Source of the DNA: Buxus sempervirens
Taxonomy: Eukaryota > Streptophyta > Magnoliopsida > Buxales > Buxaceae
Assembly: GCA_947561395.2 (NCBI GenBank)
Contig: OX387183.1
Location: 44,634,890-44,698,889, forward strand
DNA: 64,000 nucleotides
Reading direction: 5' to 3'
The notes beneath the pieces were generated by a model that saw nothing but the letters and a program-made list of their open reading frames with translations, was not told the DNA's origin and searched no databases. Shown here in pieces: positions 5,430 to 53,260 of the stretch. A program made the translations under genes and the position numbers. The first letter of the stretch is position 1. Each line of letters starts with the position of its first letter.

Positions 5430-5810
5430 CACCCCCAAGTAAACCAAATGTACATCCTTCCAAGTATACCACCCAAGTATACCTAAGGTACACCCATATA
5501 TTACCTAAAGTATACCCACATATTATCCAAGGTACCACCCAAGTATTACCTAAAGTACACCCCCCCCCAATTATACCTAAAGTACCCCCAAGTATGCCTA
5601 AGGTACATTGTTTATATTACCTAAGGTACTCCGCTTTTATACCTAAGGTACACCCTTTTGTATACCTATGGTACACCCTCTTGTATACCTATGGTACACC
5701 CTCTTGTATTACTAAGGTACCCCCTTGTATAACTAAGGTATACCCCTTCTATAACTAAGGTATACCTTTGGTATAACTAAGGTATACCCCCAAGCATATC
5801 TAAAGTATAC
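5430..5810. repeat. CTAAGGTAC-type minisatellite, left half
   Basis: Degenerate short units of the form (C)CTAAGGTACACCC or CCAAGTATACCTAAAGTAC are repeated for about 380 bp, with unit lengths near 20-27 bp. The same repeat resumes at 20576 on the far side of two nested retrotransposon insertions. The array was therefore one continuous minisatellite of about 500 bp before the insertions. It is not coding. Confidence 0.85.
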
Positions 5811-5816
5811 TGTAAG

Positions 5817-7629
5817 TGTAGACACCCCAAATTGCACTAAAAATGAGAAAATAATTGAAAATATTAATTGGGATTTGAAACAGGTCAAAAAAGTGTAAAA
5901 GCTGGCCAAACTGGTCATGACCGTATTTTGTTTACGGACTGGTCATACCTGCAGTTGATATACGGTCACGGCGTGCCCGTATTAATAATACGGGCAGGGC
6001 ACGACCGTAATATATATACGGGCACGGGGTCTTTGTGCGAATTTTACCTTTTTGATTTTTGAGCCTTATCTGCACCCAAATATCTCTCTTGGATAAGTGA
6101 ATTCTCTTATTTATCTGTTCGAATTATCTCATTTATCCTTGTGGATAAAGGATTGGCATGATCTTGTGTTTAACTCAAACTGAAACTCTATCTTGCCAAA
6201 CCTTGGACCAACCATACCCCTGTGTTTGCCTATAAATAGAGGCTCTCTCCTCTAGCTAAGGGCCACGAAATTTTGAAGTCAAGGAATTCTAAGAAGCTCC
6301 AAGAGAAGAGAAAGGAATCCCTGCTGCCTGCCTGCTCAATCCAGGTAAGTCCCCTATCCCTTTTTATTTTCTGTCTTCAATTCTAGATGTAATAGGATCA
6401 TCTCTATTGCTGTAGAATAAGGCCATATCTGTTTTTGTATTCCTAAACTTGTCTCCAAGTACCTCAAGGGTCTCTCTAGCCGTAAAACGTGAAGAGAGAA
6501 CTAGGGGAAAGGGGAACAGGTGGATCCCTAGAATAGAACCCCATATCTGTTTTTTTTCTTTTTTTAGAATAAGGCCTGTGATTGTGTTTGTGTAACCAAA
6601 CCTATCTCTAAGTACCTCAAGAGTCTCTCTAGCCGTAAAACGTGAAGAGAGAACTAGGGGAAAAGGGAACAAGTAGATCCGTAGGGTAGACCCCCATGTG
6701 CTCTAATTTGTGAGATGTGGCTGTTTTGAATATCCTGATCATTTTTAATTGTTTTTATGATGAATCTGAATGAATAACATGAATCTATGATGTTTATAGC
6801 ATGAGATCCCCTATTTTTGCCAAAATTTGATTTTTACCACTTTTGCACCTACAGCACTGTTTTCGTGATTTTAGGCTAAGATCTTGGATTTATCATGATC
6901 AATATGGTAGATCTGGATCCAGAAGCCTGAAAATAAATTCTAGGGTTTCATGATGTGGTTTTTAAATTGTTTTTCATTATTGAGAGAAGACCCTACGGTC
7001 TAAATTCTCCCCTTTTGGTGTTTTTCATCAACGTGGGTCTTTTTGGTTTTGATTTACCGATTTAATGTGAAATTTGGGCTTTATCTATGTCCTGGACTAT
7101 TCAAGTTCAATTTTGAAATATTTTATAAAAATCATATTTTTCTAGATTTCTAGAATTTTGACTTGAAACCAGATTTTTGGATTTTTCACTTTAAATTGAT
7201 TTTATTTGATTTTATCTAAATTTTATTTTGATCATGAAACCCTAGGAATGGTATGATCATGTTTGATAGTTCTGGATCAATCAGACTATTCATATGAAAA
7301 AACCATATATTTTTGCCTTTTTTGTGATTTTGTGTGATTTTTATAGCAAGCTTTTTCTTTTATTTTAAACATGAACAATACCTGGTAACCACCTTGTGTG
7401 GATGAATAGGGGTGCCTAACACCTTCCCCTGTTCATAACCTAATCCCCTTACCCATCTCTAGTTGTTTTTTTTAGGAGGGATATTTTGCCCTAAAATTTG
7501 CCTTTTGTGCTTATTTGATATGTTGGTGTCCATTCACACCTAAATTGAATGGTGGCGACTCTTTGTTTAATATAATCCCGTGTGATGATTGAGGAAATCA
7601 GTAGATTGATTTTTTTCCCATGTCTCACA
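5817..7629 (+). repeat. 5' LTR of the complete Tat-1 element
   Basis: It is 1813 bp long and begins TGTAGACACCCC and ends TGTCTCACA. A palindromic CCGTA block lies at 5911-6028 and a TATA box (TATAAATAGAGG) at 6231. A twice-repeated stretch carrying CTCTCTAGCCGTAAAACGTG lies at about 6465-6530 and 6610-6680. The order is the same in all Tat-1 LTRs in the window (248, 15768 and 42117). Confidence 0.93.
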
Positions 7630-7631
7630 AC

Positions 7632-7649
7632 TGGCGACTCTGCTGGGGA
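7632..7649 (+). other. primer binding site of the Tat-1 element
   Basis: TGGCGACTCTGCTGGGGA starts two bases after the 5' LTR. It opens with TGG, complementary to the CCA end of a tRNA. From memory this resembles the tRNA-Arg type primer site used by Ogre/Tat elements. The Tat-2 family in this window uses close variants at 40545 and 61628. Confidence 0.8.
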
Positions 7650-9100
7650 GTTGTGGATTTGAGCCTTTTGGTGTTTTAGTTCATGTTTTTGATTTTTTGA
7701 TTTGCTTGCTATTTTATGTTCTTAAGCATGTTGAGTATATTCTAAATTTGAATTATTGCTTAAGAATTCATGGGGGTAGAAACATGCATAATTTTGATTT
7801 ATAGGATTGTTTCTACAAACATGCGTAGGGGAGGTCCGTTTTGCTGAACCATGCTTATTTCTTGCTATATTTTTATAATACATGTTTTAATTTTCAGCAT
7901 GATCTCCATGATGATTTTGGGTGTATAACATGATCATATGTTTGCATGATAGATATTTTTTTATGAGCATGTTTTAGGTGCTATAGGATTGCTTTATTTA
8001 CTTGTTTATTTTAAATATGTTTTCCTATTATACCTTGGTTTGTTTATGCATGGCTGCGAAAAGAGTGGCAAGGGTGTGGGACGTTGTGAATGTGACCTAT
8101 GTTTACAATGCACTGTGCACCTTTTATTTTTTACACGGCCTACCTATCACCTATAGGAAGTTGAACAAGAATGTGTGTAGCTTGGCGCACCGAGGTCGAT
8201 ACTTCGAAAAGCGAAAGTGAAAACATTCACCTTAGAACTTTGAGCTAATGATGTGATGATAATGTGGATCTGGGATTCTGGTCATCACTAGGCTTGAGTG
8301 CTAAGTTGCCATTAAGCCAAAACCCAAAACCCCTACGCTTGAAGGTGGAGTTACACGTTTTTGGCTAAAGTACACAATTACGGGGGAATATGGGGTTGTA
8401 TGATTGTGGGAAGGCCGTGTGCATGGCTTACAAACCAGGGCATAATGCGGATGCCATATTGAAGGTAAACAAGGTAACAAGGTAATCTTGGTTTTGCATT
8501 ATTTTCATGTCATAGGGGTGTCATGGTACCCATGGGTTCGGGATAAAATTGGTCCCAAAATTTACACATTTTCTGAAATTGGTGCAGCCCATAGGAAGAG
8601 TTTCTAACTCTGTTTAGAATCAATCATACCCTATGTTCATACAAGAGGCAATAAAAGGGTACCAAATTCTTGAGTATGGTGTCAATTTGGAGGGTGCATG
8701 TGCCTTCCTAAGCATGTGTTTTAGCAAAAAGGCCAAGGTCCACTTTGGGACAGTTTAGAAGCTCTGCATTGGGTGAACCGTACGTTTGGATGAACAATGA
8801 AAGTGATCAAACCATGTAAAAACTGGAAAAATATAACAGAGTTCCGTAAAACCGCATTTGGTACACGGGCTGGGCTTGCCCGTATTGGTCATACGGGCTA
8901 GGCTCGCCCGTGGATTGCATACGGTCACGGCAGGCTCGTAATTTGAATACGGGCAGGGCTGGACCGTACTGTGTATACGGTTTTTTCGGAATATTCAACT
9001 TTAATCAGTTTTTTCCACCAAAATATTCTTTTAACCTTTAAATAATGATAAAGGGAAACAAGTTTGAATAAAATGCTTCAAAAAAAAAAAACAAACAAAA
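7650..9100 (+). other. untranslated leader of the Tat-1 element, no gene seen
   Basis: The stretch between the primer site and the repeat array has no convincing open frame. It contains the palindromic block at 8846-8980, annotated separately, and ordinary AT-rich sequence. Tat-lineage elements often carry an additional ORF upstream of gag. I see none that is intact or recognisable here. Confidence 0.55.
8846..8980 (+). repeat. palindromic CCGTA block in the Tat-1 leader, diverged copy of the LTR block
   Basis: Consecutive inverted repeats with CCGTA/TACGG cores are packed here, for example GCCCGTAT/ATACGGGC around 8877-8897. The order ATACGGTCACGGC, then ATACGGGCAGGGC, then GGACCGTA, then TATACGG repeats the order seen in the LTR block at 5911-6028, with changed spacers. 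This internal block therefore looks like a second, diverged copy of the LTR block. Confidence 0.75.
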
Positions 9101-9120
9101 TAATGTGAGAGAAAGGTTCC

Positions 9121-10590
9121 TTGGGCTTCTGAAAGCCTTTGAATTTCCGACTTCTTCAAAACTCTTGGGCCTCTGAAAGCCTTTGAATTTCAGATTTTTC
9201 AAAAAAATCCTGGGCCTCTGAAAGCCTTTGAATTTCAGACTTTTTCTCCAAAAAAAAAAAATCCTGGGCCTCTGAAAGCCTTTGAATTTCAGACTTTTTC
9301 TGAAAGCCTTTGAATTTCAGACTTTTTCTCAAAAAACTCCGGGCCTCTGAAAGCCTTTGAATTTCAGATCTTTTGGGCTTCTGAAAGCCTTTGAATTTCA
9401 GAACTTTTGGGCCTCTGAAAGCCTTTGAATTTCAGACCTTTTTCTTTTGGGCCTCTGAAAGCCTTTGAATTTCAGAACTTTTGGGCCTCTGAAAGCCTTT
9501 GAATTTCAGACCTTTTTCTTTTGGGCCTCTGAAAGCCTTTGAATTTCAGACCTTTTTTTGGGCCTCTGAAAGCCTTTGAATTTCAGAACTTTTGGGCCTC
9601 TGAAAGCCTTTGAATTTCAGACCTTTTTCTTTTGGGCCTCTGAAAGCCTTTGAATTCCAGACCTTTTTCTTTTGGGCCTCTGAAAGCCTTTGAATTTCAG
9701 AACTTTTGGGCCTCTGAAAGCCTTTGAATTTCAGACCTTTTTCTTTTGGGCCTCTGAAAGCCTTTGAATTTCAGAACTTTTGGGCCTCTGAAAGCCTTTG
9801 AATTTCAGAACTTTTGGGCCTCTGAAAGCCTTTGAATTTCAGACCTTTTTCTTTTGGGCCTCTGAAAGCCTTTGAATTTCAGAACTTTTGGGCCTCTGAA
9901 AGCCTTTGAATTTCAGACCTTTTCCTTTTGGGCCTCTGGAAGCCTTTGAATTTCAGAACTTTTGGGCCTCTGAAAGCTTTTGAATTTCAGACCTTTTCTT
10001 TTTGGGCCTCTGAAAGCCTTTGAATTTAAGACTTCCATCAACGGGCCTCTGAAAGCCTCTGAATTTCAGACCTTTTCCAAAAATATCCTTGGGCCTCTGA
10101 AAGCCTTTGAATTTCAGATTTTTTTTCAAAAATATCCTTGGGCCGTCTAAAAGCCTCTGAATTTTAGACAAATCATTTCTTTGGGCCGTCTATAAGCCTC
10201 TGAATTATAGACACATATCCTTTGGGCCGTCTAAAAGCCTCTGAATTTTAGACAAATCATTTCTTTTGGGCCGTCTAAAAGCCTCTGAATTTTAGACCAA
10301 TCATTTCTTTGGGCCGTCTATAAGCCTCTGAATTATAGACACATATCCTCTGGGCCTCTGAAAGCCTTTGAATTTCAGAATTTTTTCAAAAATATCCCTG
10401 GGCCTCTGAAAGCCTTTGAATTTCAGACTTTTTTTTCAAAAATATCCCTGGGCCTCTGAAAGCCTTTGAATTTCAGACTTTTTCCAAAAATTTCTTTGGG
10501 CCTCTGAAAGCCTTTGAATTTCAGATCCTTTTCTTTTTTTGTGGGACCTGTTGGAAGCCCTAGAATATTCCAACAATTCAATTCAAAAAA
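9121..10590 (+). repeat. array of about 36 hairpin-forming units upstream of gag
   Basis: Units of about 30-50 bp each carry an inverted repeat around a conserved loop close to GCCTTTGAA. The commonest stem is TCTGAAA/TTTCAGA. Within 10140-10345 the stem changes to GTCTAAAA/TTTTAGAC or GTCTATAA/TTATAGAC. The last unit at 10549-10575 has TGTTGGAA/TTCCAACA with a loop related to GCCCTAGAA. Spacers are pyrimidine-rich (ACCTTTTTCTTTTGGGC). I counted about 36 units by eye. The array sits in the leader, roughly 180 bp before the likely gag start. Confidence 0.93.
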
Positions 10591-10765
10591 AAAAGAAGAA
10601 GCAAATAAAGAAACAAAATCCAAACTCGTGTTCACCCAGCTTGCACATAGACATTCCTAGGCATGTGAATGAGATTAAATGGGCACTGATATTTTCCCTT
10701 TATTTTTGCCAGGTACCAATACACTTGCAATCATAGCTCCTGTAACCAGATCAAGAGCTCACACC

Positions 10766-12463
10766 ATGAATCCCATTGAGACTGAAGCTGATGCTCCTCA
10801 CCCAGATCTTGTCCTGCTTCAGGAGCAAGTGGCAGGACTAGCCCGAATGCTAGAGAACATACTATCGGTGCAGGCCCAACAAGTTCAATCCCAGAACCAA
10901 GCATCCACTTCCAACCAAGCACCTCCACCTCCAATTAATATCCCACCTCCGGTTCAACCTATTCCTGAACCCATTTCTGAACCTACCCCTGAACCTATAC
11001 TGATCAGGGAGGAGATGGTTGAGTCTGAGAAAGAGAATGAAAAAGAAAAGATGAGGGATGAAATAGAAAGAAAATTCATGCACAGGCTGGAGATGATCCA
11101 GGAGGAAATGAGAGAGGTGAAAGGGATACGTAACTTTGGGGGCACCAATTTTGAAGATTTGTGTCTATACCCCAATGTATGCTTACCGGCCAAATTCAAG
11201 TGTCCGGACTTTGACAAGTATGATGGCACTGGCTGCCCAATGAGCCATTTGAAGTTATACTGCGGGGCTTTATGCCAGTTTGGCCGGGATGACGGCATAC
11301 TAATTCAACTCTTCCAAAGGAGTTTAACTGGAGCTGCTTTGAGGTGGTTTGCCACTTTGGATCATGGGAAAATAAGAAGGTGGAAGGATTTAGCAGATTC
11401 ATTTTTGGCACAATACAGGTTCAACTCTGAGATTATACCAGATAGGTATGACATGATGAGGATGACGAAGAGAAATGATGAGACCATAAGGCAATATGCT
11501 AAAAGGTGGAGGGAGTTGGCTGCACAAGTCAAGCCACCCATGGGAGAACCAGAAATGATTTCAACCTTCATCATGACACTGGGGCAACCGTTTTACAGTC
11601 ACTTAGTGGGTCAAACTACCACCAACTTTGCTGCTCTAGTACAAGTGGCAGACAGAATTGAAGATGGGATCAAGTCTGGGAAAATAGCTGATTACTCTGC
11701 AGTGTTGAACCAGGAAGCTCCCACCACTTTCTCTACACAGAAAAAGGAGAATGGTAATGGAAAAATAAAGAATGAAGAAAGGAGAGAAGCAGGAATGAAT
11801 ATGGTGCAACTTCCTAGGGAACCCTTTCAAATCAATGCCTATCCACCTCCTATCAAGCCAACCCATCAAGTTCCTTTGCTGCCTATCCAAATTAATGTCC
11901 CTTCTGCACAGCCTATGAAGGAGGAAACAGAAGTAAGGAAGAGAAGGGAATTTTCTAAACTGCCTATGAGACCATCTGAACTTTTGCCTACCTTACTTCA
12001 GAAGGGTTATGTGACTTTGAGGTTGCCAAATCCTCATGCAAGCAAAGGGAAGGGTTATGATCCATCTGCAATTTGTGAATATCATATGAGTAGTCCAGGG
12101 CATACCACAGATCGTTGCTTGGCCCTAAAGCATGCAATTCAGGATTTGCTGGATAATAACTCTTTATCATTCAATTCAGTCACTCCTATCCCACCTACCG
12201 ATAACAATGGGGCAGGCAGCTCAAATGCAATAGGGGCAATTTTCTCTGAAGAAAGAAGATTTGACCCTTCTCAGCTTATCGCTCCTATTGGTCCAACAGT
12301 CAGGGTTTATCTTGAAAGAAATGCTCCTGGTTATGAGCAGGAAGGCTTGCCTTACTCAGTAGGAGAAAGAAATTATCAGAAAAAGGAAGAAAAATCAACT
12401 TTTGCCTTTGAGAACAGGGGCAGTTTTCGAACTCCCATGTTCTCTGAAAAGAAACCTGCATAA
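10766..12463 (+). CDS. gag: Gag polyprotein of the Tat-1 retrotransposon
   Basis: This is the structural capsid protein of a Ty3/gypsy Tat-lineage element. I chose the ATG that opens MNPIETEAD, giving 565 residues. The same frame is open from 10679, but that start lies before a pyrimidine-rich stretch ending in CAG near 10712 that looks like a splice acceptor. In order it has an N-terminal coiled-coil-like helix (LVLLQEQVAGLARMLENIL), a proline-rich linker, a charged E/K/M-rich helix, and then the retrotransposon gag core. The core includes FDKYDGTGCPMSHLKLYCG, then AALRWFATLD, then WKDLADSFLAQY, then RQYAKRWRELAAQVKPP. Near the C-terminus CEYH, PGH and DRCLALKHAIQDLLD form the zinc-knuckle-like motif typical of Ogre/Tat gag. 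The frame looks whole. Function follows from family knowledge, and expression is not shown. Confidence 0.9.
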   Translation: MNPIETEADAPHPDLVLLQEQVAGLARMLENILSVQAQQVQSQNQASTSNQAPPPPINIPPPVQPIPEPISEPTPEPILIREEMVESEKENEKEKMRDEIERKFMHRLEMIQEEMREVKGIRNFGGTNFEDLCLYPNVCLPAKFKCPDFDKYDGTGCPMSHLKLYCGALCQFGRDDGILIQLFQRSLTGAALRWFATLDHGKIRRWKDLADSFLAQYRFNSEIIPDRYDMMRMTKRNDETIRQYAKRWRELAAQVKPPMGEPEMISTFIMTLGQPFYSHLVGQTTTNFAALVQVADRIEDGIKSGKIADYSAVLNQEAPTTFSTQKKENGNGKIKNEERREAGMNMVQLPREPFQINAYPPPIKPTHQVPLLPIQINVPSAQPMKEETEVRKRREFSKLPMRPSELLPTLLQKGYVTLRLPNPHASKGKGYDPSAICEYHMSSPGHTTDRCLALKHAIQDLLDNNSLSFNSVTPIPPTDNNGAGSSNAIGAIFSEERRFDPSQLIAPIGPTVRVYLERNAPGYEQEGLPYSVGERNYQKKEEKSTFAFENRGSFRTPMFSEKKPA

Positions 12464-15400
12464 AAAGAATGCACATTTCCTGAGGATCCTAAGGAGCCTT
12501 GTTCTCAGGAAGTGATTTCAATAAAGGCTCTTCAAAAAAAAAAATTTTCCCTTTTAACATTTTTCTAGAAAAAAAAAAAGTTTTCTACAAGGTCCTTTTT
12601 TACTTATGAATCATATCTCTTATTGAATTTCATTGAGTTGAATATGACTTTGACATTGGGCTCGATTTTGAGACCAAAATCAAAGAAAAAGACATTTTAT
12701 GTGAAAATTCAAATCTTTTTAAGTGTCATGAGAAGAATATTCTTCAAAATTATGAAGTGACCAATTTTATGGCCTTTAGAACCAAAGATGACCCACAGTC
12801 TTCAACAGAAAAGATAGAAGAAGATTTGAAGTTTCTTCATTAGAATACAGAAAGGATCGCACCACTTGCTGATGCGTTCAAAGGGAAGTTGATAATATTG
12901 TTTGAAGAAATTTTGGGGCTTTGCATTTGAAAATATGTGAGAATCTGACATTTTCGTTGGAAATAGAATTGGGCATCATTTGATGGAAAGAATCCAAATT
13001 CATAAGACTGATCAAAAGTTGAAGAACTTGTTCATAACAGAAGTTCTATTTAAAGAGGCTTTCATGTTGACAAAAGGTGATTAAGAAAAAAAAAGAGAAG
13101 AAAAAATCCTGAGCCAGTCATGTAGTATAACTTTACCAAGTCTAAAATTCAAACTTTTCTTAAAATGATAAGAGGCCTTTCTTTCTTATATCCCCAAAAA
13201 TTTTGAAATCCCTAGTTAAACCCTTTGAGCTTGATACATTTTTCCAAGTAACCTAAACTGAGAATTGTAACCCCACACTGGGGCAAATTTATTAAGGCAT
13301 AAAAAAAAGGGAATGAAGGGACAATTATTGAAGTTCAAAAAGGATTTTGAATATGTTTTCAGAAAATGGGGCAAAGAAATGAAAAAAAAAAAAGAAAAAA
13401 AAAGGGAAGAAAAAAAGATAATCAAATGCTATTTGGAGAATGTCTTCAAAATTGTGAAGGAAAGAATGGAAAAAAGAAGTTCAATAGTGGGGAATAAGTT
13501 TCAAATGAAGAAATCAAATTGTGGGAAGAACTTCATTACTGGGGCAATTTTGTATTCATTCCAAGGGAAGAAATGCCTTAAAAATTACAATTTCAGTTAA
13601 CCCATTTGATCATAGGGTATTTGAGCCTTTTATTCCTTTTCTTTCTAAACTAACACCAAGCCTTCGTTTCGTCCTATTCATAAGTCCTCTTTGATTAAGA
13701 AATTTTTAATTAAGGCAGTTTTGACTACATGGTTGCTGGTGATGAAGGATTAAAAAAAAAGAAAAAAGAAAAAAAAAGAAAAAAGAAGAAGAAAAAAAAA
13801 GGAAAAAATGGAGAAAATGTGGTGAAAACCCGAAAGGGCGCTACATGGCAAATAATCAGCTATCTACAAGAAGGAAATCGTCAGAGAGGAAAGTCCAGAA
13901 TTGGCATAGGTCCAGGTGAAGTCCTCCTGTTGGTGGTTACTTTTGAGATATAGTCACTCTTCAAGTGATTGAGGAAAGTCTTCTTTTCAAGACTGAAGCA
14001 ACATAATCAGAACTATGGTATGAATCATCTGTGAACAAGTTGATGGCCATCAAAATTGCCATTAGGAAATTATTGCTGAAGTTGAAGTCATAAATTCTCA
14101 TACCATGGATACAATGGAGAAACAATTGTTCTTCAATTGGATGAAGGAAGATGTCTTTCTAGACTGGGGCAAAATAGTCAGATTGAAAGAGTTGTCATAT
14201 CAGGAGCATTAATTGACAAGCCGATGGTCATGGGAATGATTCTAAAGGTTCCAAAGGTTGATTTTGGTCTTTCTGCATTTTCTGAAATAATCTTCTCATT
14301 ATTCAACTTGATTTTAATTCTTTTGGACTATATGCTAATAAGTGATTGGATCATTTTTTCAAAAAAATATAAAAACACAGAAAAGCAAACAAAATATATT
14401 TTAGGCCTATGATGAGAATCTATATCTTTTCATAAAACATTGGTTTTGCAAGCATTAGAGAATTCTGAGGCCACTAGTATAAAACCTATTTTCTTATGTT
14501 TGCATTTGCATTCTTCTATTAGGGTTTCTTTTTGGCAAAGGTTAAAAAAAAAAAAAAGAAAGAAAGAGAAAGAGAAAAAAAAAGAAAAAAAAGAAAAAAA
14601 AAGAGAAAAAGGAAAAAAGAGGATCATTTCTACTGAGGGGCAAATACTTCTTTAAACAATCAAAACCGGGGCATGCTCAATGTCTTTCCTTCTGGGTTTT
14701 CATTGGAATGAATTCCAAATTCTGGAAGAAGCAATCAAGCTTTATTCTTCGAATTTGAAAGAAAAAAAAAAGGCTTCGAAGCAATAGCATGTTTTCTTTA
14801 TTAAACAAGGGTTCCCAATTCCTCAATCATGAAGAAGTATTTACTGGGGCAGCAAGAAGGCATGAAAGACAGATCATAGGTTGTAAAGGGCATGAGATTA
14901 GATCAACAGATCATGATCCATCAATCAAGATGAGGGCATTCACTTGGGCACTTAAAAAGCATGAAGACTGGTTATGGGCAGTAAAGGCACATACATCGTT
15001 ATTAAAAGAGCAAGAAGATGAAGAAGCAGAAGCAAGTTGCAGAATATTCAAGCACAGGTTTGGGCATCAAATGGCACCCAGGTATATCAAATAAGAAAAT
15101 CAATCAGGAAAATTCAAAAAGTGAAAAAAATCAAAATCAATTGAGTTTGCAGTGGTCAATTTTAAATCCACATTCTTTTCAAAATTTGCTTGTTTCAGAT
15201 TTCTTTTCATAGCCACGAGAGCTCCAAGAAATCTGAGATAAGGAAGAGACGCCACCCCATCAGACTTCAAGCAGGGGTTTTATTGGCTATCTTCGAATCC
15301 ATGTTTTTATCATTTCATTGTTTAACCAAAGCAAGTTCAATTAATGAGATGTTTTTCAAATTTGTAATTTTGAGTTGTGTCTGTTCTTTGCTGTTCATTA

Positions 15401-15754
15401 TGCTACAACTGCAGGCCACCCAGAAAAATTGTCTTTTTCATCATTTTCTCCACACTTTTCAGGAGATTAATGTTTATATTAGTTGTAAGTTGCAAGGATC
15501 ACCACCTTACCCTCTTTTGTTTAAAAATTTTGTCTCAAATCTCACTTCATAGCCACGAGTGCTCAGTGAGAGGAGAGAGGAGGATTTGGCCCTTAAGCTG
15601 AGGGACTTCTTAGCAAATCTTCCACAATCAATTCTTTTTTTCAAAAATCATCCATTTAATCCTTGCAAAGTGCAATTGATTAGACAAAAATCTTAGAAAG
15701 TGCAATTGGTGGGTCTTTTTGCTCTCTGCTTGTAATTGGTTCCAATTACCAGCA
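12464..15754 (+). other. 3' interior of the Tat-1 element, no recognisable pol
   Basis: About 3.3 kb between gag and the polypurine tract carry only short open frames without recognisable reverse transcriptase, integrase or protease motifs. Long A-rich purine tracts (AAAAAGAAAAAAAG type) occur near 13376-13420, 13750-13805 and 14545-14625. The motif TCATAGCCACGAG occurs twice, near 15209 and 15549. The stretch could be degenerate pol or unrelated captured DNA. I cannot tell which. Confidence 0.6.
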
Positions 15755-15767
15755 AAGAGGGGGCAGC
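15755..15767 (+). other. polypurine tract of the Tat-1 element
   Basis: AAAGAGGGGGCAG lies directly before the 3' LTR. This is the position where plus-strand DNA synthesis is primed in LTR retrotransposons. An equivalent tract precedes the LTR at 248. Confidence 0.8.
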
Positions 15768-17582
15768 TGTAGACACCCCAAATTGCACTAAAAATGAGAA
15801 AATAATTGAAAATATTAATTGGGATTTGAAACAGGTCAAAAAAGTGTAAAAGCTGGCCAAACTGGTCATGACCGTATTTTGTTTACGGACTGGTCATACC
15901 TGCAGTTGATATACGGTCACGGCGTGCCCGTATTAATAATACGGGCAGGGCACGACCGTAATATATATACGGGCACGGGGGTCTTTGTGCGAATTTTACC
16001 TTTTTGATTTTTGAGCCTTATCTGCACCCAAATATATCTCTTGGATAAGTGAATTCTCTTATTTATCTGTTCGAATTATCTCATTTATCCTTGTGGATAA
16101 AGGATTGGCATGATCTTGTGTTTAACTCAAACTGAAACTCTATCTTGCCAAACCTTGGACCAACCATACCCCTGTGTTTGCCTATAAATAGAGGCTCTCT
16201 CCTCTAGCTAAGGGCCACGAAATTTTGAAGTCAAGGAATTCTAAGAAGCTCCAAGAGAAGAGAAAGGAATCCCTGCTGCCTGCCTGCTCAATCCACGTAA
16301 GTCCCCTATCCCTTTTTATTTTCTGTCTTCAATTCTAGATGTAATAGGATCATCTCTATTGCTGTAGAATAAGGCCATATCTGTTTTTGTATTCCTAAAC
16401 TTGTCTCCAAGTACCTCAAGGGTCTCTCTAGCCGTAAAACGTGAAGAGAGAACTAGGGGAAAGGGGAACAGGTGGATCCCTAGAATAGAACCCCATATCT
16501 GTTTTTTTTCTTTTTTTAGAATAAGGCCTGTGATTGTGTTTGTGTAACCAAACCTATCTCTAAGTACCTCAAGAGTCTCTCTAGCCGTAAAACGTGAAGA
16601 GAGAACTAGGGGAAAAGGGAACAGGTGGATCCGTAGGGTAGACCCCCATGTGCTCTAATTTGTGAGATGTGGCTGTTTTGAATATCCTGATCATGTTTAA
16701 TTGTTTTTATGATGAATCTGAATGAATAACATGAATCTATGATGTTTATAGCATGAGATCCCCTATTTTTGCCAAAATTTGGATTTTTACCACTTTTGCA
16801 CCTACAGCACTGTTTTCGTGATTTTAGGCTAAGATCTTGGATTTATCATGATCAATATGGTAGATCTGGATCCAGAAGCCTGAAAATAAATTCTAGGGTT
16901 TCATGATGTGGTTTTTAAATTGTTTTTCATTATTGAGAGAAGACCCTACGGTCTAAATTCTCCCATTTTGGTGTTTTTCATCAACGTGGGTCTTTTTGGT
17001 TTTGATTTACCGATTTAATGTGAAATTTGGGCTTTATCTATGTCCTGGACTATTCAAGTTCAATTTTGAAATATTTTATAAAAATCATATTTTTCTAGAT
17101 TTCTAGAATTTTGACTTGAAACCAGATTTTTGGATTTTTCACTTTAAATTGATTTTATTTGATTTTATCTAAATTTTATTTTGATCATGAAACCCTAGGA
17201 ATGGTATGATCATGTTTGATAGTTCTGGATCAATCAGACTATTCATATGAAAAAACCATATATTTTTGCCTTTTTTGTGATTTTGTGTGATTTTTATAAC
17301 AAGCTTTTTCCTTTATTTTAAACATGAACAATACCTGGTAACCACCTTGTGTGGATGAATAGGGGTGCCTAACACCTTCCCCTGTTCATAACCTAATCCC
17401 CTTACCCATCTCTGGTTGTTTTTTTTAGGAGGGATATTTTGCCCTAAAATTTGCCTTTTGTGCTTATTTGATATGTTGGTGTCCATTCACACCTAAATTG
17501 AATGGTGGCGACTCTTTGTTTAATATAATCCCGTGTGATGATTGAGGAAATCAGTAGATTGATTTTTTTCCCATGTCTCACA
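15768..17582 (+). repeat. 3' LTR of the complete Tat-1 element
   Basis: It is 1815 bp long and nearly identical to 5817-7629, with about 11 differences seen by eye including two single-base indels. It ends TGTCTCACA and is followed at once by the target duplication GTAAG at 17583-17587. Confidence 0.93.
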
Positions 17583-20575
17583 GTAAGACCCCGAATTTTC
17601 ACATAATAAATAAATAAATATATAAATAAAAGAAAATATGAGTTAAGTTATAATTAAAATAAAAAGTGAAGATTTAGAGGATAAGTAATTCAAATAGATA
17701 ATAAGTTGTAAATAAAGAAGAACTTTTAAGGAAATTATCCTAAAAGGGTAAAAGGGTATTTTGGTAATTTTCAGAAAGGGTAATTTATGAAATAAATCAT
17801 TAAATGATAATTAAGGTTAGAAAATAGAAGGAAATAATTTATTAAGTCAAGTAAGAAATAAAATAGTGATAATTAAGACATAAAGTGGGAAAAAGGGTAA
17901 TTAGGTAAATTCGATTCTTAATTGGGAGAAAAGTAACTTAATTTGGGTTTTAGGTGATATTTAGGATGTAAGTGAGTGTTAGGCACGAAATTAGGTTGTA
18001 AGGAGGAGTCTAGATAATAAGAGATTTAATTAGTATTGTTTTTGTAGAAAAATAGAAGGTGGAGAAAAAGTAGGAATTAATTAGGAGTTAGACTTTAATT
18101 AGACCTTGCTTGGGTTAGCCTAATTAAAGGAGCCTATTAGGGTTGGTTTAGGACTTCTAAAGCCAAGTATAAATAGGAGAGTAAGGTGAGACAAAAGAGA
18201 ATTTTCGTGGGTTTTATAATGAGAGAAAAGAGGGAGAGAAAGGAAGAAAAGGTTGCTGGAGATGTCCGACCAGTCTCCATCAAATCGCGATCAGGGAAAA
18301 TCCGTACGATGGATCAACTTCAAATTTGGTTGTTTTGATCTTCACTGATGGAACTACAATGTGAACGGTGGAGATTGGAATTGAAAAACTCTAGGTTGGT
18401 GCGTTTGTGAGCAGAAGTTGGGTCCAGAATTAGAAACTTCAATGAAAGATGGATTTTTAGCGTATGAGGCAAGTAGTAACCCTTGAAAACTAGAGGAATT
18501 GCATGGTTTCGTTTCCTATGATCTAATATGGTTTGAATGGATTAGTCGGAACTGGATTTACATGGAATCAAATTTTTTATATTATAGGATTTTGTATTCT
18601 TGAAGGATTGGTTAAAGTAATGAAGAAAACTTGGTTTAATCATGCAAATAATCATAGGATGGTATTTAATTGAAACAAATTAATCTAGAAGGCTTTAGGT
18701 ATGATTTAGAATGTTAATAGAGTAATTTAGACCAATGAAACTTATAGCCAAAGCCTAAAAATCCGAACTTGGTAAATCTGGAAATTACTATTGAAAATTT
18801 GCACGAGCGCCTAGGACTGCCTAGACAGCAGAAGTACGCGCTCTAATTAGAATTTAAGGGATTTTTGGATTTTGATAATACGATTAAATACCTAGTAATT
18901 TTTCTAATATGATAATCATTCTACCAACTTTATAAAGACCTAATTAAGGTATAAAAATTTATAAAATTGAATTGGAAAAATTAACCAATTAATTGAAGGT
19001 TATAATGTAAGGTTGGTGCATGAAAATGTCTAAATGGTATGAGATATTGATAGGAATAATACTACTGGAATTCATAGAGTAAAAACATCTTCTAAACTTT
19101 ACTTTAGGTCTGGAAGATATGCTGGACAATAAAAACATGGAAAATTTAAATAGAAACTATTTTAGGTATTAAGATGGGAAATTGGATTCTAATAAAGGGA
19201 TTAATAAGGAAAACCCTAAACAAGACTTGAATTACTTTTGGTCTGTACTTTAAATATTAATATTGGTTTCTGTAATTGCATAAACTCTTATTTCTATCGA
19301 ATTTATGATACATGAGTTCTATTTTGAATATAACTGGGAAATTGCATATGTTATTCGGAAAAAGGCTTTAGTTGGACTTTTAAGGATTGAATCATGGTTT
19401 TCTCTTAGAATTGAATATTTGGGTATGGATTGGTATGTGGTATGATGTTATTCGCTTTTCTTTACGGTTGAGTGATACGGCTTCTGTGGTTGAGTTGATA
19501 CTAGCTTTTACGGCAGAGATGGGTAATCCTCTGTGTAGAGATGTGTAATCCTTTACGGGTAAAGGTGTGTATGCCTCCTACAGTAGTGTGTCCTCCCGTA
19601 TGTGGTTTTATCGTGTTTTATGTCAGTGGGCTTAGCTGTATATGGATCTATAGTTTTGGCTGGTTAGCTAAGTGGTATTTCGTTTGGGTTGAATTACTCC
19701 TATGTGCGAGCGCGCTTCCTTTGTAAATTACTTTGCTATGGAAGGTCCTATGTCTGGAAGGACACCCCGGTGCTCCACTGGTGATTCCCTGTACATGTGG
19801 ACAAGCGGTCACCTCCATGTATTGATTCCGGTGCTGCATGCTGGTGGTACATGCCAACTCTGTTGAGTTCGTGCGCAATAAGTCGATGACTACGGCTCCT
19901 ATCTAAGGTGAACTTCACGAGTTTGAGTGTCTTAGTAGCTTCGCCCATAAGCCGCACGGTAGTATAGCATTTAGTCGAGTGTCATCTCAAATACTTATCA
20001 TCTTTGTGAGTCCTGCAATGACACCTGTTTTATCGCTTTGGTTGGTTTTACCTCGATAACATCTAATTGCTGGAATTTATGCGTGATTATCAGTTTTATC
20101 GCTTTATTTGGATTGCCATCGATAATTTGAACTCATCGTCTTATCGTTTATTAATCGCATACCTCATGACTATTTGCTTACATTAGACTGTTTCCAATTT
20201 CATGCACCTGCTACTTGCTGAGATATAAATCTCACTCCGTTTTCCCCTATTTTTCAGGTTGCTTGGAGAGATCGCGAAGATGGGGTTTTATTTGATGGGT
20301 AGAATTGTAATTGATATTAATGTTCACATTTTAATTGGACAAACTTTATTGTAAACTGAATTGATTAAATTGAATAAAGAATTGTTTTATTTCCCACCAG
20401 AACTCTGATGTAATTAATTAGTATTAAAAATTATTGTGATTCTTAGTTTGTATCTGACCCCAGCTTCGCAGTAACACCTCGGGTTTGGTTGTTGAAATGG
20501 ACTTGGGTTGTTACAGTAGCGAACCGGGTTTGGGTTCGGTGCTGGTTTGCACAAACCCGGGTTCGGGGCGTTACA
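17583..20575 (+). mobile_element. solo LTR, Ty3/gypsy chromovirus-like, split by the Tat-1 insertion
   Basis: The solo LTR starts TGTAAG at 5811-5816, is interrupted by the Tat-1 element, resumes at 17583 (repeating GTAAG) and ends GGGGCGTTACA at 20575. A 5-bp target duplication TATAC lies at 5806-5810 and 20576-20580. Net length is just under 3 kb. The TGTAA(G/C)ACCCC start, the GGGGCGTTACA end and a GAGATATAAATCTC hairpin near 20219 followed by TTTTTCAG are shared with the Tekay-type LTR in this window (49541 end, GAGATATTCGTATCTC near 49170). No internal region remains. Open frames such as 19541-19726 are not credible genes. Confidence 0.88.
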
Positions 20576-33274: not shown

Positions 33275-33524
33275 TTAATAAAATATTCATATCTCCTCTT
33301 AAACGTTAACGCCTTTGGCACTGGGAGTTCGTTTGCTGACGTGGTTTGGCAGGTCAAATGACCTGACGTGTCGTTCAACCAGTGGTTACGGGTTGAGCAT
33401 TAATAAAATATTCATATCTCCTCTTAAACGTTAACGCCTTTGGCACTGGGAGTTCGTTTGCTGACGTGGTTTGGCAGGTCAAATGACCTGACGTGTCGTT
33501 CAACCAGTGGTTACGGGTTGAGCA
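33275..33524. repeat. exact 125-bp tandem duplication upstream of the PUP gene
   Basis: Two units (33275-33399 and 33400-33524) appear identical base for base. Each contains AACGTTAACGCC, TGACGTGG, a GTCAAATGACCTGACGTG stretch with TGACG-type motifs, and GGTTACGGGTTGAG. The second unit ends 399 bp before the PUP start codon. Identity of both copies implies a very recent duplication or conversion. Regulatory meaning is inference. Confidence 0.93.
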
Positions 33525-33739
33525 TTTTACGAGCCCGACCTTAGAGGATCCGAATGTCCTTGTTTTTAACACATTCTCATTGATACCGCGTATCATTAAA
33601 AAGAAACTCGATGGCGTTTCTCACAAACTGTTTCAATTTGAATGCGACTGCCTTTGTCCACATTGTTCAAAATGTAATGATATATAGGCCCCAGTCTTAA
33701 ACTAACTTCATAAACGCAGATCGCGAGCTTTCCGTGCTT

Positions 33740-33923: not shown

Positions 33924-35137
33924 ATGGCCATGAACATCGAGAAGATCGAGCTGGGCAACAATGATGAACAGCCCTGTGACAACAACCCTACACAAGATCA
34001 GAACTCCAAGAAATTCAGTTTCACCAAATGGGGACTCTTCCTGCTGAATTATGTCCTCTATGCCGTCGGAAGCGTCGGAGGGCCGATGCTCAGCAGGGTC
34101 TACTACATGCACGGCGGCAACCGGAAATGGTTGTACAGTTCGACACAAGTTGTGGGCTTCCCTCTAATGTTTGTTCCCATAACAGTCTTCTATCTGCGTG
34201 ACCGCAAATCCGGTATCAAGACCATTGCCTCCCCACATCTTATTGGATACAGTGTTTTACTGGGCATCATCAATGGAATACTCAGCTTTACCTATTCCTA
34301 CGGCTTGTCTTACCTTCCAGTGTCAACAGTGACAATCCTCACTGCCACAAACCTGGCTTTCACTGCTTTATTCGCCAAGCTTATCGTCCGGCACAAATTT
34401 ACTCCTTTCTCTATTAATGCGGTCGTGTTGATGACATTCGGCGCTGTCTTGCTGGGGTTGAAGAAGGATGCTGACAGGTTGCCCGGTGTCTCAAATGGCG
34501 AATACATATTGGGATTCATCCTCACAATGGCCACGGCAGCATTGAGTGGTTTCATTTTCCCTTGCAGTGAATATGCCTTTGCCAAGACAGGCAAAGACAT
34601 GAGTTATTCTGTGGTTTTGCAGTTTTTATGTGTGGTCAACTTTGTTGCTACAATCTTTTGCACCATTGGAATGATTATAAGCAAAGATTTTCAGGTATGA
34701 CGTATTGATTGATTGATGGTTAATTATTTCTTCCGTTTGTTGGTAGCTGGATGTTCAAATCTCATATGCATTAACATGACTTAAATCTAAATCTGGGGTG
34801 TTTGTGTTAATTTGTTCAGGCAATAAGTGGAGAAGCGAGAGAGTTTGGGTTGGGCATAACCAAGTACTATCTCATACTAGCTTCAAGCATGATTGTTTGG
34901 TCGATGCTCACACTGGGTTCATTTGGACTCGTCTACTGCTCTTCATCGCTGTCCTCGGGGATTTATGGGTCATTGCTGGTTCCAATAGCGGAGGTTGCTG
35001 CACTGGTTGCGTTTCATGAGAAATTTACAGGAGAAAAAGGCATGTCCATGGCTCTCTGCCTGTGGGGATTCACCTCATATTTCTACGGATCTTACAAGGA
35101 AAACAAGAAGCAGAAGCAGACACCAATTGACACTTAG
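33924..35137 (+). CDS. PUP: purine permease family transporter (PUP), two exons
   Basis: Coding exons are 33924-34694 and 34820-35137, joined across a 125-bp GT-AG intron with the phase preserved, giving 362 residues, a normal length for plant PUPs. The N-terminus is hydrophilic (residues 1-33). About ten hydrophobic segments follow, the first near 36-56 (WGLFLLNYVLYAVGSVGGPM). Family landmarks are GGPMLSRVYYMHGG (52-65), YLPVST (130-135), FTPFSINAVVLMTFGAVLLGL (159-179, central part), EAREFGLG near 262-269, FHEKFTGEKG (322-331) and GFTSYFYGS (340-348). Family members move purines, cytokinins and some alkaloids across plant membranes by proton coupling. The exact substrate and membrane are not evident here. 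The gene looks intact. The ATG follows an unobstructed leader and an MAMN start. It stands alone in its neighbourhood, with an exact 125-bp promoter-side duplication upstream. Confidence 0.93.
34695..34819 (+). other. intron of the PUP gene
   Basis: It begins GTATGA after CAG and ends TTTGTTCAG before GCAATAAG. It lies between codons, after residue 257 (phase 0). Many plant PUP genes are known to have one or few introns. Confidence 0.9.
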
Positions 35138-41180: not shown

Positions 41181-44100
41181 TGTAACGCCCCAAATCCGAG
41201 TCACGAAATAACACCATAACTCATCCCCAGAGGTTAATATAAAACACAGGATTGCAATATTAGAGTGAAGGAAAAACATGAATACGACAATAACTATATA
41301 ACAGAGTGCGCTAAAATAATCCCAAAAGGAAATAAACTCACATGACCAAGTAACTACCCGCAAGTATCGTCCTCTCCTGGAGTAGTCGAAAACAAAGCAA
41401 AAAACAACCTGAATGAGATACGAATATCCCAGTGAGCAGTACATGCATGCACAAATACATTTAGTTCAGTTCTAAAACATGGCACGATTACAAACCATAT
41501 ACAATGATGATAACACACATAGTTTGAATAATCCGACTAAATTTCAACACTCCAATTTATATCAGTGCAGAAATCCATTATGTAAATCAAGTAATAACAT
41601 CCGTTTCAAATCACGAAGATAGCGAGAAAATAATGATTAACTGACAACAACATAACGAATAATCATAATTTCACGTCTCAAAATATACTTCCAGACATAC
41701 CAATGTCACATAAAACCAAGTCTTCTCATAACCATGTCCATGCCTCCAAATGTATATCCAACCAACTCAGGGTTTCGGATATTGAAATGACGGCCTACTC
41801 AAGGTATTGTCATCCAATGCCGGCCTACTCCGGGTATTGGCATTGACAACACCGAACCACTCAGGGTCATGATGCTGCTCTATACCGGCGGAAGAAATAC
41901 AAATACCAAATAACCGATAAACCACATTCAGTGAACCATAAATACCAATAAACAAGCGGATAGAACATATCGTGCCAAATAAAACAAATCCCAACAGTGG
42001 TCAATGTCATGTAGTTGCTTAGATTGGTTAATCAACATGCCAGAGCGACATCCACACCTCCATGTACACAATTCCGGCCTACTCAGGGTATCAAACACTC
42101 TGAAATGACGACCTACTGTGAGACATGGAAAAATCAATTTAATGATTTCCTAATCATCACACGGGATTATATAAAACAAAGAGTCGCCACCATTCAATTT
42201 AGGTGTGAATGGACACCAAAATATTAAATAAACACAAAAGGCAAATTTTAGGGTAAAAATAACCCTCCTAAAAAAACAACCAGAGATGGGTAAGGGGATT
42301 AAGTTATGAACAGGGGAAGGTGTTAGGCACCCCTATTCATCCACACAAGGTGGTTGCCAGGTATTGTTCATGTTTAAAATAAAGGAAAAAAGCTTGCTAT
42401 AAAAATCACACAAAATCACAAAAAGGGCAAAAATATATGGTTTTTTCATATGAATAGTCTGATTGATCCAGAACTTTCAAATATGATCATACCATGCCTA
42501 GGGTTTCATGATCAAAACAAAATTGAGATGAAATCAAATAAAATCAATTTAAAGTGAAAAATCCAAAAATCTGGCTTCAAGTCAAAATTCTAGAAATCTA
42601 GAAAAATATGATTTTTATAAAATATTTCAAAATTGAACTTGAATAGTCCAGGACATAGATAAAGCCCAAATTTCACATTAAATCAAGAAAATCAAAAACC
42701 AAAAATACCCACGTTGATGAAGAACATCAAAAGGGGAGAACTGAGACCGTAGGGTCTTCTCTCAATAATGAAAAACAATTTAAAAACCACATCATGAAAC
42801 CCTAGAATTTATTTTCAGGCTTCTGGATCCAGATCTACCATATTGATCATGATAAATCCAAGATCTTAGCCTAAAACCACAAAAATCACGAAAACAGTGC
42901 TGTAGGTGCAAAAGTGGTGAAAATCCAAATTTTGGAAAAAAGTGGGGATCTCATGCTATAAACATCATAGATTCATGTTATTCATTCAAATATATCATAA
43001 AAAGCATTAAAACATGATCAGGATATTTAAAACAGCCACATCTCACAGATTATAGCACATGGGGGTCTACCCTACGGATCCACCTGTTCCCCTTTCCCCT
43101 AGTTCTCTCTTCACGTTTTATGGCTAGAGAGACTCTTGAGGTACTTAGAGATAGGTTTGGTTACACAAACACCATCAAAGGCCTTAAAATAGAAAAAAAC
43201 AGATATGGGGTTCTATTCTAGGGATCCACCTGTTCCCCTTTCCCCTAGTTCTCTCTTCAGGTTTTACAGCTAGAGAGACTCTTGATGTACTAAGAGACAA
43301 GTTTAGGAATACAAAAACAGATATGGCCTTATTCTACAGCAATAGAGATGATCCTATTACTTCTAGAATTGAAGACAGAAAAATAAAAAGGGATAGGGGA
43401 CTTACCTGGATTGAGCAGGCAGGCAGCAGGAGTTCTTCTCTTCTCTTGGAGCTTCTTAGAATTCCTTGGACTCAAAATTTCGTGGCCCTTAGCTAGAGGA
43501 GAGAGCCTCTATTTATAGACACACCCAGGGGCAAGGCTGGTCCAGTATTTGGCAAGATAGAATTTCAGTTTAAGTTAAATATAAGATAATGCCTATCCAT
43601 AGCCAACCAAGGTGGCTTCAGCGAATAAAATACGTAATTCGCTCATTTAAAGATATATTGGACGAAAGATAAAGCTCGGAAATCGAGAGAAGGACAAAAC
43701 TCGCACGTGTCTTTAGTGACCGTAAATGCACTACGGTCCAACGGTGACCGTATAGTTTCCACGGGCGCGCCTGACCATAGAGTGATCTCGGGCGCGACCG
43801 GCCCGTGAATGAAATACGGGCAAAGCCTATTTATTCAATTTTTATGCATTTTTAACCTATTTTAAGCTCTAATTACATGTTTTTATTATTTTCTCATTCT
43901 GTAGTGCAATTTGGGGTGTCTACACCTAATCAGGGTATCGTCATCCAATGCCGGCCTACTCCGAGTGTCGGCAATGACAACCAGGCCTACTCAGGGTTTC
44001 TGGCTACTCTACACTGGTCGTGGCAACACTCCATGGCCATGCCATTACCCAAATAAAACAAATACATCACATTACTAAGCTTAAACTCTGGATCCAGGAT

Positions 44101-52131: not shown

Positions 52132-52429
52132 ACTTGCCACGTTTGCGCGAGTGGCAATATGATGAGAAAACATTTAATGCGGCCGCTCGTCGGTCGGAAA
52201 ATCTGAATTTTTCATATTTAGTCCCTGGCCATTTTCGATTTAATCCGATATTCTCGGATTTTTATAGATTTAGTCCCTAGGATATTTCGGACATTTGGAT
52301 ATTTACGGATTTGATCCCCGAGATATTTTCCTGCGCAACTCACCACGTGTGCAGCTTTTTGCCACGTGTGCAGTTTGCCGGTTTTGCTGCTCGGAAACTT
52401 CGTCAGCTTATATTTTCTCCATCCGGACT

Positions 52430-53260
52430 TCGATCTGGGCAAACTTAGTTGCGTTAGAATCGTATTGGAGCCCTCTATCCTATGACCTAGGGGTAGGCAT
52501 CTGGATCGGATTTTAGCAGAATGTCAACTTTTGGCTCCGCTCAAGTTTGACCGCCCGCAGAACCCTCATCCGGACTCTGATTCCTGCAAACTCAGTTGCG
52601 TTGGAACCGTGTCGGGATTCTCTATCCAATGATATAGAGGTAAGCATCTGGATCAGGTTTTAGCAGAAAGTCAACTTTCGGCTCCCCTCAAGTTTGATTG
52701 CCCGCAGAACCCTTATCTGGACTCCGATTCCTGCAAACTCAGTTGCGTTGGAACCGTGTCGGGATTCTCTATCCAATGATATAGAGGTAAGCATCTGGAT
52801 CGGGCTTTAGCAGAAAGTCAACTTTCGGCTCCCCTCAAGTTTGACCGCCCGCAGAACCCTCATCCGGACTCCAATTCCTACAAACTCAGTTGCGTTGGAA
52901 CCATGTCGGGATTCTCTATCCAATGATATAGAGGTAAGCATCTGGATCGGGCTTTAGCAGAAAGTCAACTTTCGGCTCCCCTCAAGTTTGACCGCCCGTA
53001 GAACCCTCATTAGGACTCCAATTCCTGCAAACTCAGTTGCGTTGGAACCGTGTCGGGATTCTCTATCCAATGATATAGAGGTAAGCATCTGGATCGGGTT
53101 TTAGCAGAAAGTCAACTTTCGGCTCCCCTCAAATTTGACCGCTCGCAGAACCCTCATCCGGACTCCGACTCCTGCAAACTCAGTTGCGTTGGAACCGTGT
53201 CGGGATTCTCTATCCAATGATATAAAGCGAGGTGGTCAATTTTCACTTGATCAAAAAGTC
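52430..53260 (-). repeat. LTR-internal tandem repeat, period about 147 bp, six units
   Basis: Each unit holds CAAACTCAGTTGCGTTGGAA, CGTGTCGGGATTCTCTATCC, a TAAGCATCTGGATCGG stretch and AGTCAACTTTCGGCTCC. Units begin near 52440, 52590, 52737, 52885, 53033 and 53180. The equivalent place in other Tat-2 LTRs here has one unit (copy A, near 37740) or two units (45841 copy and copy B). Confidence 0.88.

Follow-up and report, generated by a model that had tools for sequence, protein, structure and literature searches.

Covarying hairpins in a tandem array upstream of gag in LTR retrotransposons of Buxus sempervirens

Why should the two arms of an inverted repeat change together, unit after unit, in a tandem array that lies in the leader of a retrotransposon? 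The question is raised by a locus of Buxus sempervirens for which a preliminary description, made from the letters of the DNA, proposed selection for a structured RNA or single-stranded DNA. We compared the array with its relatives elsewhere in the same genome and weighed this proposal against processes that could match the arms in other ways.

The element and its array

The window is the whole stretch of DNA that was analysed, 64,000 nucleotides belonging to a 62 Mb contig in a 676 Mb genome. The element that carries the array spans 5817-17582 and has the following parts:

5812-5816 and 17583-17587, target-site duplication GTAAG, letters read directly
5817-7629, + strand, 5' LTR with TG...CA ends
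7632-7649, + strand, putative primer binding site TGGCGACTCTGCTGGGGA, 2 nt past the 5' LTR, read from the sequence
10679-12463, + strand, gag open reading frame (PF03732, E 2.7e-12)
12464-15767, + strand, no recognisable pol (no long frame; Pfam scan)
15768-17582, + strand, 3' LTR, 99.4% identical to the 5' LTR

With a pair of 1.8 kb LTRs, TG...CA termini, a target-site duplication and a gag domain, this is a full-length LTR retrotransposon. Between gag and the 3' LTR, six + strand frames that were scanned gave no Pfam match above the curated cut-off, the best sub-threshold score being that of DUF6702 in a lysine-rich frame (20.1 bits against a cut-off of 24). Since it has gag and LTRs and pol was not found, the window copy is a gag-only, non-autonomous element. 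As far as partial accounts of TR-GAG elements go, it is like them in having two LTRs and gag without pol, a likeness that is established for the window copy alone as regards the absence of pol. We know of no hairpin array in TR-GAG elements. The gag is presumably of the kind that resembles Tat/Ogre; the Tat lineage of Ty3/gypsy is itself defined, in the part of the source cited here, by an additional RNase H (aRH) and a Tat reverse transcriptase (PMC6317226).

Within the leader of this element lie the units in question:

9127-10575, + strand, hairpin array upstream of gag, 36 units, 32 of them perfect over the seven inner pairs
10145-10340, + strand, block of five units with 8-bp stems GTCTAAAA/TTTTAGAC and GTCTATAA/TTATAGAC
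10549-10575, + strand, last unit, stem TGTTGGAA/TTCCAACA, 11-nt loop

Picking units by the loop motif alone reproduced the approximately 36 tandem hairpins first reported upstream of gag, together with all four of the stems then listed: stem a (TCTGAAA/TTTCAGA), GTCTAAAA/TTTTAGAC (three units), GTCTATAA/TTATAGAC (two units) and stem D, TGTTGGAA/TTCCAACA, with its 11-nt loop (one unit). The names B and C are used here for TCTAAAA/TTTTAGA and TCTATAA/TTATAGA, in both of which an eighth pair, G-C, is usual. A unit combines a stem of 7-8 bp, a loop of 9-11 nt and a 5' flank of the GGGCC or GGGACC type. The claim that the arms are altered together and remain paired is borne out by the number of perfect units, and a minority with single-arm changes is present as well: four imperfect units start at 9127 (TTTCCGA), 9638 (TTCCAGA), 9934 (TCTGGAA, a G-U pair) and 10008 (TTTAAGA), three of which had already been named. 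Unit 9968 has an altered loop and unit 9298 is without the GGGC flank. The loop, said to be constant near GCCTYTGAA, is nearly the same throughout, except that position 5 is T or C, position 7 changes in some units and the terminal type has 11 nt.

Covariation and inheritance of the stems

Similarity to the array or its flanks yielded 68 stretches of the genome, of which four were duplicates and were dropped (L002, L006, L031, L040), so that with the window 65 arrays were available; 13 later arrays (L069-L081) brought the number compared to 78, that is, the window and 77 others. Loci were selected for likeness to the window copy or its array, and L073-L081 for holding a fifth stem, E (TTTGAAA/TTTCAAA), which occurs in other arrays of the genome and is absent from that of the window; the search pattern behind these stem-E loci permitted unpaired forms. 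In the 65 arrays, units were selected by loop and 5' flank only, and the resulting 1422 comprise 880 a, 202 B, 77 C, 8 E and 59 D-like units (the last classed by loop), the commonest single-arm types being represented 26, 21, 21, 20, 17 and 16 times. The GTCTAAAA/TTTTAGAC type was found in 27 of the 65 arrays and the GTCTATAA/TTATAGAC type in 26. Genome-wide, TCTGAAA/TTTCAGA has 19,502 exact matches; the B/C frame, GTCTA[N]AA/TT[N]TAGAC, has 4,071, with N matched in 99 of 100 among the matches listed; and the E frame has 638, all 100 of those listed being paired under a pattern that left C/T and A/G free. About 24,000 units in one genome thus match the three stem frames counted (a, B/C and E). 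The D frame has 1,267 matches, and the 100 listed include 91 with the standard stem, one with a matched change at -7 and eight that are single-arm variants or otherwise not fully paired. Array length and unit order vary strongly from copy to copy, and a D-like unit closes the array at its 3' end in most of the copies listed.

A covariation test against a shuffled null had been suggested at the outset, and we ran it on the arrays of this one genome: the covariation score lies above 1000 of 1000 shuffles, while other measures are weaker. Distinct haplotypes were scored in a fixed register of 26 columns (325 column pairs), since an alignment of units by MAFFT put those with 11-nt loops out of register; the unit finder behind the test demands GG in the flank, and the shuffles ignore relatedness. 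Paired cells amounted to 90.3% among 189 haplotypes and 94.8% among the 74 present in at least two arrays, with scores of 0.394 and 0.314 against shuffle means of 0.178 and 0.154; neither score nor percentage paired was reached by any of 1000 shuffles in either set, relatedness again being ignored, and the result holds when four split arrays are merged. Ranked by corrected correlation among the 325 column pairs, -3:+3 and -4:+4 come first and second. For all haplotypes, -7:+7 is fourth and -6:+6 eleventh; for those in at least two arrays they are eighth and fifth, respectively. Columns -8 with -4 and +4 also rank high though unpaired, because of shared descent. Leaving out L073-L085 (nine array stretches selected because they contain stem E, plus a stretch immediately before the array in four of these cases) gave 0.358 against 0.158 and 0.195 against 0.106, score and percentage paired both staying above 1000 of 1000 shuffles; -4:+4, -3:+3 and -7:+7 then stay in the top seven and -6:+6 drops to 27 (all) or 18 (at least two arrays). 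The weaker measures are the number of pairs with change on both sides, reached by 1 of 1000 shuffles for all haplotypes and by 259 of 1000 for those in at least two arrays, and the number of extra pair types, reached by 4 and 14 of 1000. With the register slid by +1, all haplotypes give equally many pairs with both-side change (7) and 21 instead of 20 pair types, at a score of 0.10 against 0.394.

Stem types are linked to their own spacers. Because of this link, and because the shuffles are blind to relatedness, we counted events and not copies, and arrived at about six independent matched changes: at -4 (between a and B), at -3 (between B and C), at -6 (E) and at -3, -6 and -7 (D), with further -7 states within D. 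The recurrent stems differ in matched fashion at four pair positions, two of which, -3 and -7, show three Watson-Crick states.

Inheritance was followed with both arms masked, by reciprocal best partners across the 65 arrays, the context compared being the 110 bases to either side of a unit. Where this context is 94% identical, the fraction of units whose partner has the identical stem is 0.84 for a, 0.91 for B, 0.64 for C and 0.97 for D, and 0 to 0.22 for the single-arm types listed, with the exception of CCTGAAA/TTTCAGA, mismatched in its outermost pair, at 0.46. Expressed as clusters shared or private at the same 0.94 context identity, internal mismatches are 5 to 78, wobbles 9 to 56, outermost mismatches 2 to 9, units with more than one defect 0 to 13 and stem E 0 to 8; the two inherited clusters with an outermost-pair mismatch are among these. 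Stem E looks private in this context test, and its recurrent status rests on the genome-wide matches to the E frame and on the arrays of a divergent subfamily. Most changes that disrupt pairing are private to one copy, resembling decay after insertion, and the stems common to many insertions stay paired. Unpaired arms as frequent as paired ones in other copies would have spoken against the preliminary description; it is paired stems that are found again at corresponding places in many copies.

The divergent subfamily has leaders with 69.5-79.8% identity to the window element in BLAST pieces and 77.9-84.6% in ungapped comparison (three loci), and 71.8% from the end of the array into gag (one locus). 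Its B, C and E units are letter-identical to those of the first subfamily. No a units occur among the scored units of its arrays, and D-like units are many, with G-C, C-G or T-A at -7 and with several shortened to 5-6 bp. Matched arm change is confirmed and extended: the arms covary, and inheritance of the main paired types reaches across insertions and across subfamilies.

A candidate leader intron and the explanations for pairing

Two sets of motifs flank the array:

8462-8485, + strand, three donor-like AAG/GTAA motifs, with a possible intron start at 8465, 8474 or 8482
10686-10714, + strand, acceptor-like site with a CTGAT branch-like motif, a pyrimidine tract and CAG/GT at 10712/10713

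Two or three of the AAG/GTAA motifs are found in 65 of 65 fetched loci in which the region was located, four of the divergent subfamily included, one of the two anchors used to locate it overlapping the motif. CTGAY, a pyrimidine tract and CAG/GTAC follow the array in both subfamilies; the arrangement was present in 62 of 82 stretches scanned, stretches that do not cover the site being scored as misses, and the differences in tract length from copy to copy are not always multiples of three. These motifs suggest that the array sits within a candidate leader intron and would be retained only in unspliced RNA. Provided that the predicted acceptor is used, translation of gag likely starts at the ATG at 10766.

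An array in a leader intron ending at 10712 would be carried by unspliced, genomic-length RNA only, and its repeated loops could jointly serve as a recognition platform for packaging, export or retention of that RNA. We regard it as very probable that hairpin pairing is maintained in the replicating lineage. The whole chain, in which maintained pairing, leader intron and loops as a platform for recognising genomic RNA would all have to hold, is read from sequence and more tentative, with a probability of about 0.4. We consider the array best explained by a role as RNA in genomic-length transcripts, with arm-copying during reverse transcription as a competitor. A more elaborate proposal would have a multi-hairpin signal, confined to genomic RNA by splicing, mark that RNA for packaging or export through a single loop repeated dozens of times on stems that are interchangeable, so that a pol-less copy keeps its cis-acting signal; in this full form it is speculative and improbable.

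Of the original proposal of selection for structured RNA or single-stranded DNA, what stands is that the arms covary beyond shuffling, in many insertions and two subfamilies; an excess of G-U pairs is missing, and folding is little or no better than that of shuffled sequences. At pair -4, a preference for wobble over A-C intermediates is absent genome-wide (761 G-U against 879 A-C), and wobble clusters are shared in 9 of 65 cases against 5 of 83 for internal mismatches (Fisher p 0.16). With no significant difference, wobble asymmetry was rejected as proof of a + strand RNA. CTG/CAG sites are methylated in plants, and both intermediates look like the result of deamination because both are transitions in such methylated sites. 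Single units alone fold into the drawn hairpin at -6.1 to -9.9 kcal/mol, with z of -0.08 to -1.62 against dinucleotide shuffles. A two-unit stretch has z of -0.28 on the + strand and 0.00 on the - strand, one of the two units mispairing, and for a 1000-nt stretch of the array the minimum free energy has z of -1.24 and 0.18, respectively; in that longer fold many a units pair with their neighbours and five B/C units retain their own hairpins. As evidence for structure, folding energy is unremarkable. Rfam gave no family at gathering score for window positions 7600-10800, the best hit reaching 15.8 bits against a cut-off of 68.

Quasi-palindrome correction, in which one arm is copied onto the other when a polymerase stalls in a hairpin, offers a different route to matched arms. 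Applied here, a reverse transcriptase stalled in the hairpin would copy one arm onto the other, and the arms would match without selection for structure. All seven pairs of the recurrent stems are Watson-Crick, with no visible tolerance of G-U. Matched types are those of the replicating lineage, and most private changes affect a single arm, as expected of matching during reverse transcription. What arm-copying alone leaves unexplained is the rest of the unit. In exact-stem units, flank bases 2 and 3 (GG), the loop CC and the loop AA are altered in at most about 2.4%, in counts whose unit finder demands GG in the flank; the share of changed units is 3-7% for flank base 1, 4-13% for flank base 5, 2-10% for loop position 5 and 2-6% for loop position 7. 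The spacers between units, in contrast, vary in length and sequence. Nor does arm-copying alone account for units identical between subfamilies whose surroundings differ by 15-30%. Inverted loops, which would have C at position 9, are also missing: that position is A in 1488 of 1489 exact-stem units, and the sole C is without the G expected at position 8. As the sole cause, arm-copying is a serious candidate that we nevertheless consider unlikely. In such arrays, variants that have been through replication can be set against those acquired since insertion, and this natural contrast could help to tell selection apart from arm-copying.

It is very unlikely that a founder effect lies behind the pattern, in the sense that a few units palindromic by chance were multiplied and covariation mostly reflects copy number. 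The link of stems to spacers leaves few independent events, copies have arrays of very different length and order, and a few single-arm types are inherited too, all of which would suit such a history. It fits poorly with matched changes at four pair positions and three Watson-Crick states at two of them, and most single-arm variants, equally free to multiply, were not multiplied; distinct haplotypes alone, moreover, still beat every shuffle, in shuffles that ignore relatedness. Least probable of all is a function in DNA, as palindromic binding sites or extruded hairpins acting in chromatin, transcription or the integration complex. The lack of a preference for wobble suits DNA no less than RNA, but a sequence-reading dimer would keep its half-sites and vary the spacer, whereas in these units variation is in the stem and most flanks and loops are retained.

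To our knowledge, the cis signals of plant LTR retrotransposons are poorly known, and known structured leader and transport elements are single structures, not dozens of near-identical tandem hairpins. Retroviral packaging signals, which are needed in cis for packaging and left out of spliced RNA, are structured RNA of the genomic transcript. So are the MusD and IAP transport elements and the caulimovirus leader, in the sections cited of a source that also calls it unclear whether plant LTR retrotransposons possess one class of export motif (PMC12786077). As far as those sections describe them, the Buxus array is like all of these in lying outside coding sequence, its own RNA structure being predicted. 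In the same sections, the introns of Ogre, EVADE and BARE1 are said to yield distinct pools of RNA that meet different fates (PMC12786077); unlike these, so far as they are described there, the intron here is predicted from motifs and located in the leader. The tandem repeats in the 3' UTR of Tat/Ogre elements are portrayed, in an excerpt citing Macas et al. 2009, as hypervariable in sequence and length, a source of satellites, and downstream of gag-pol (PMC7004042). On that excerpt's account, the two have in common that they are short tandem arrays within plant LTR retrotransposons, multiplied along with the element; they differ in that the Buxus array is upstream of gag, keeps its hairpin and shows matched arm changes. 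We found no published description of a hairpin array upstream of gag in a search of the literature made largely outside subscription papers. The covarying array, with about 24,000 units across the genome that match the three stem frames, is a defined candidate cis signal for plant LTR retrotransposons.

An unsupported flank-loop pairing, and other repeats in the window

A pseudoknot between flank and loop (GGG with CCC, AGG with CCT) was examined and is not supported: genome-wide, AGG-flanked terminal units have GCCC in 10 of 11 cases. Among 130 D-like units, collected like the rest with GG demanded in the flank, 12 of the 13 with AGG have GCCT and all 115 with GGG have GCCC, T or C standing at that flank base in the remaining two; the 12 AGG/GCCT units come from only two groups of related arrays. 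The 1575 units of non-D types show no flank-loop association, F1:L4 ranking 46 to 293 of 325.

A second set of inverted repeats lies between the donor-like motifs and the array:

8861-8981, + strand, shorter inverted-repeat group of the TACGGGC...GCCCGTA type, partly paired

Because many copies share mismatches in this group, we make no pairing claim for it: a unit with a G-A mismatch is common to 38 copies, and the most frequent form of the third unit is not fully paired either. A similar tandem repeat is present in both LTRs (5958-6027 and 15909-15978), and the divergent subfamily has TATCCGG/CCGGATA hairpins at about the matching place of its leader.

Directly before the 5' LTR, and hence at the insertion site, is a tandem repeat of about 22-23 bases of the CTAAGGTACACC type (5572-5789). 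Two LTR copies related to that of the element are found at 1-2054 and 42114-43924, with 85% identity over 2.1 kb and, for the second, 93% over 1.5 kb; they are solo or 3' LTRs, as neither has a primer binding site after it. Further downstream, a 147-base tandem repeat of five and a half copies occupies 52420-53224, and related sequence is found near 48.1-48.7 kb and 58.3-58.8 kb. Bases 33275-33526 form a perfect tandem duplication of 125 bases, about 400 bases upstream of a frame that matches purine nucleobase transporters (33924-34700).
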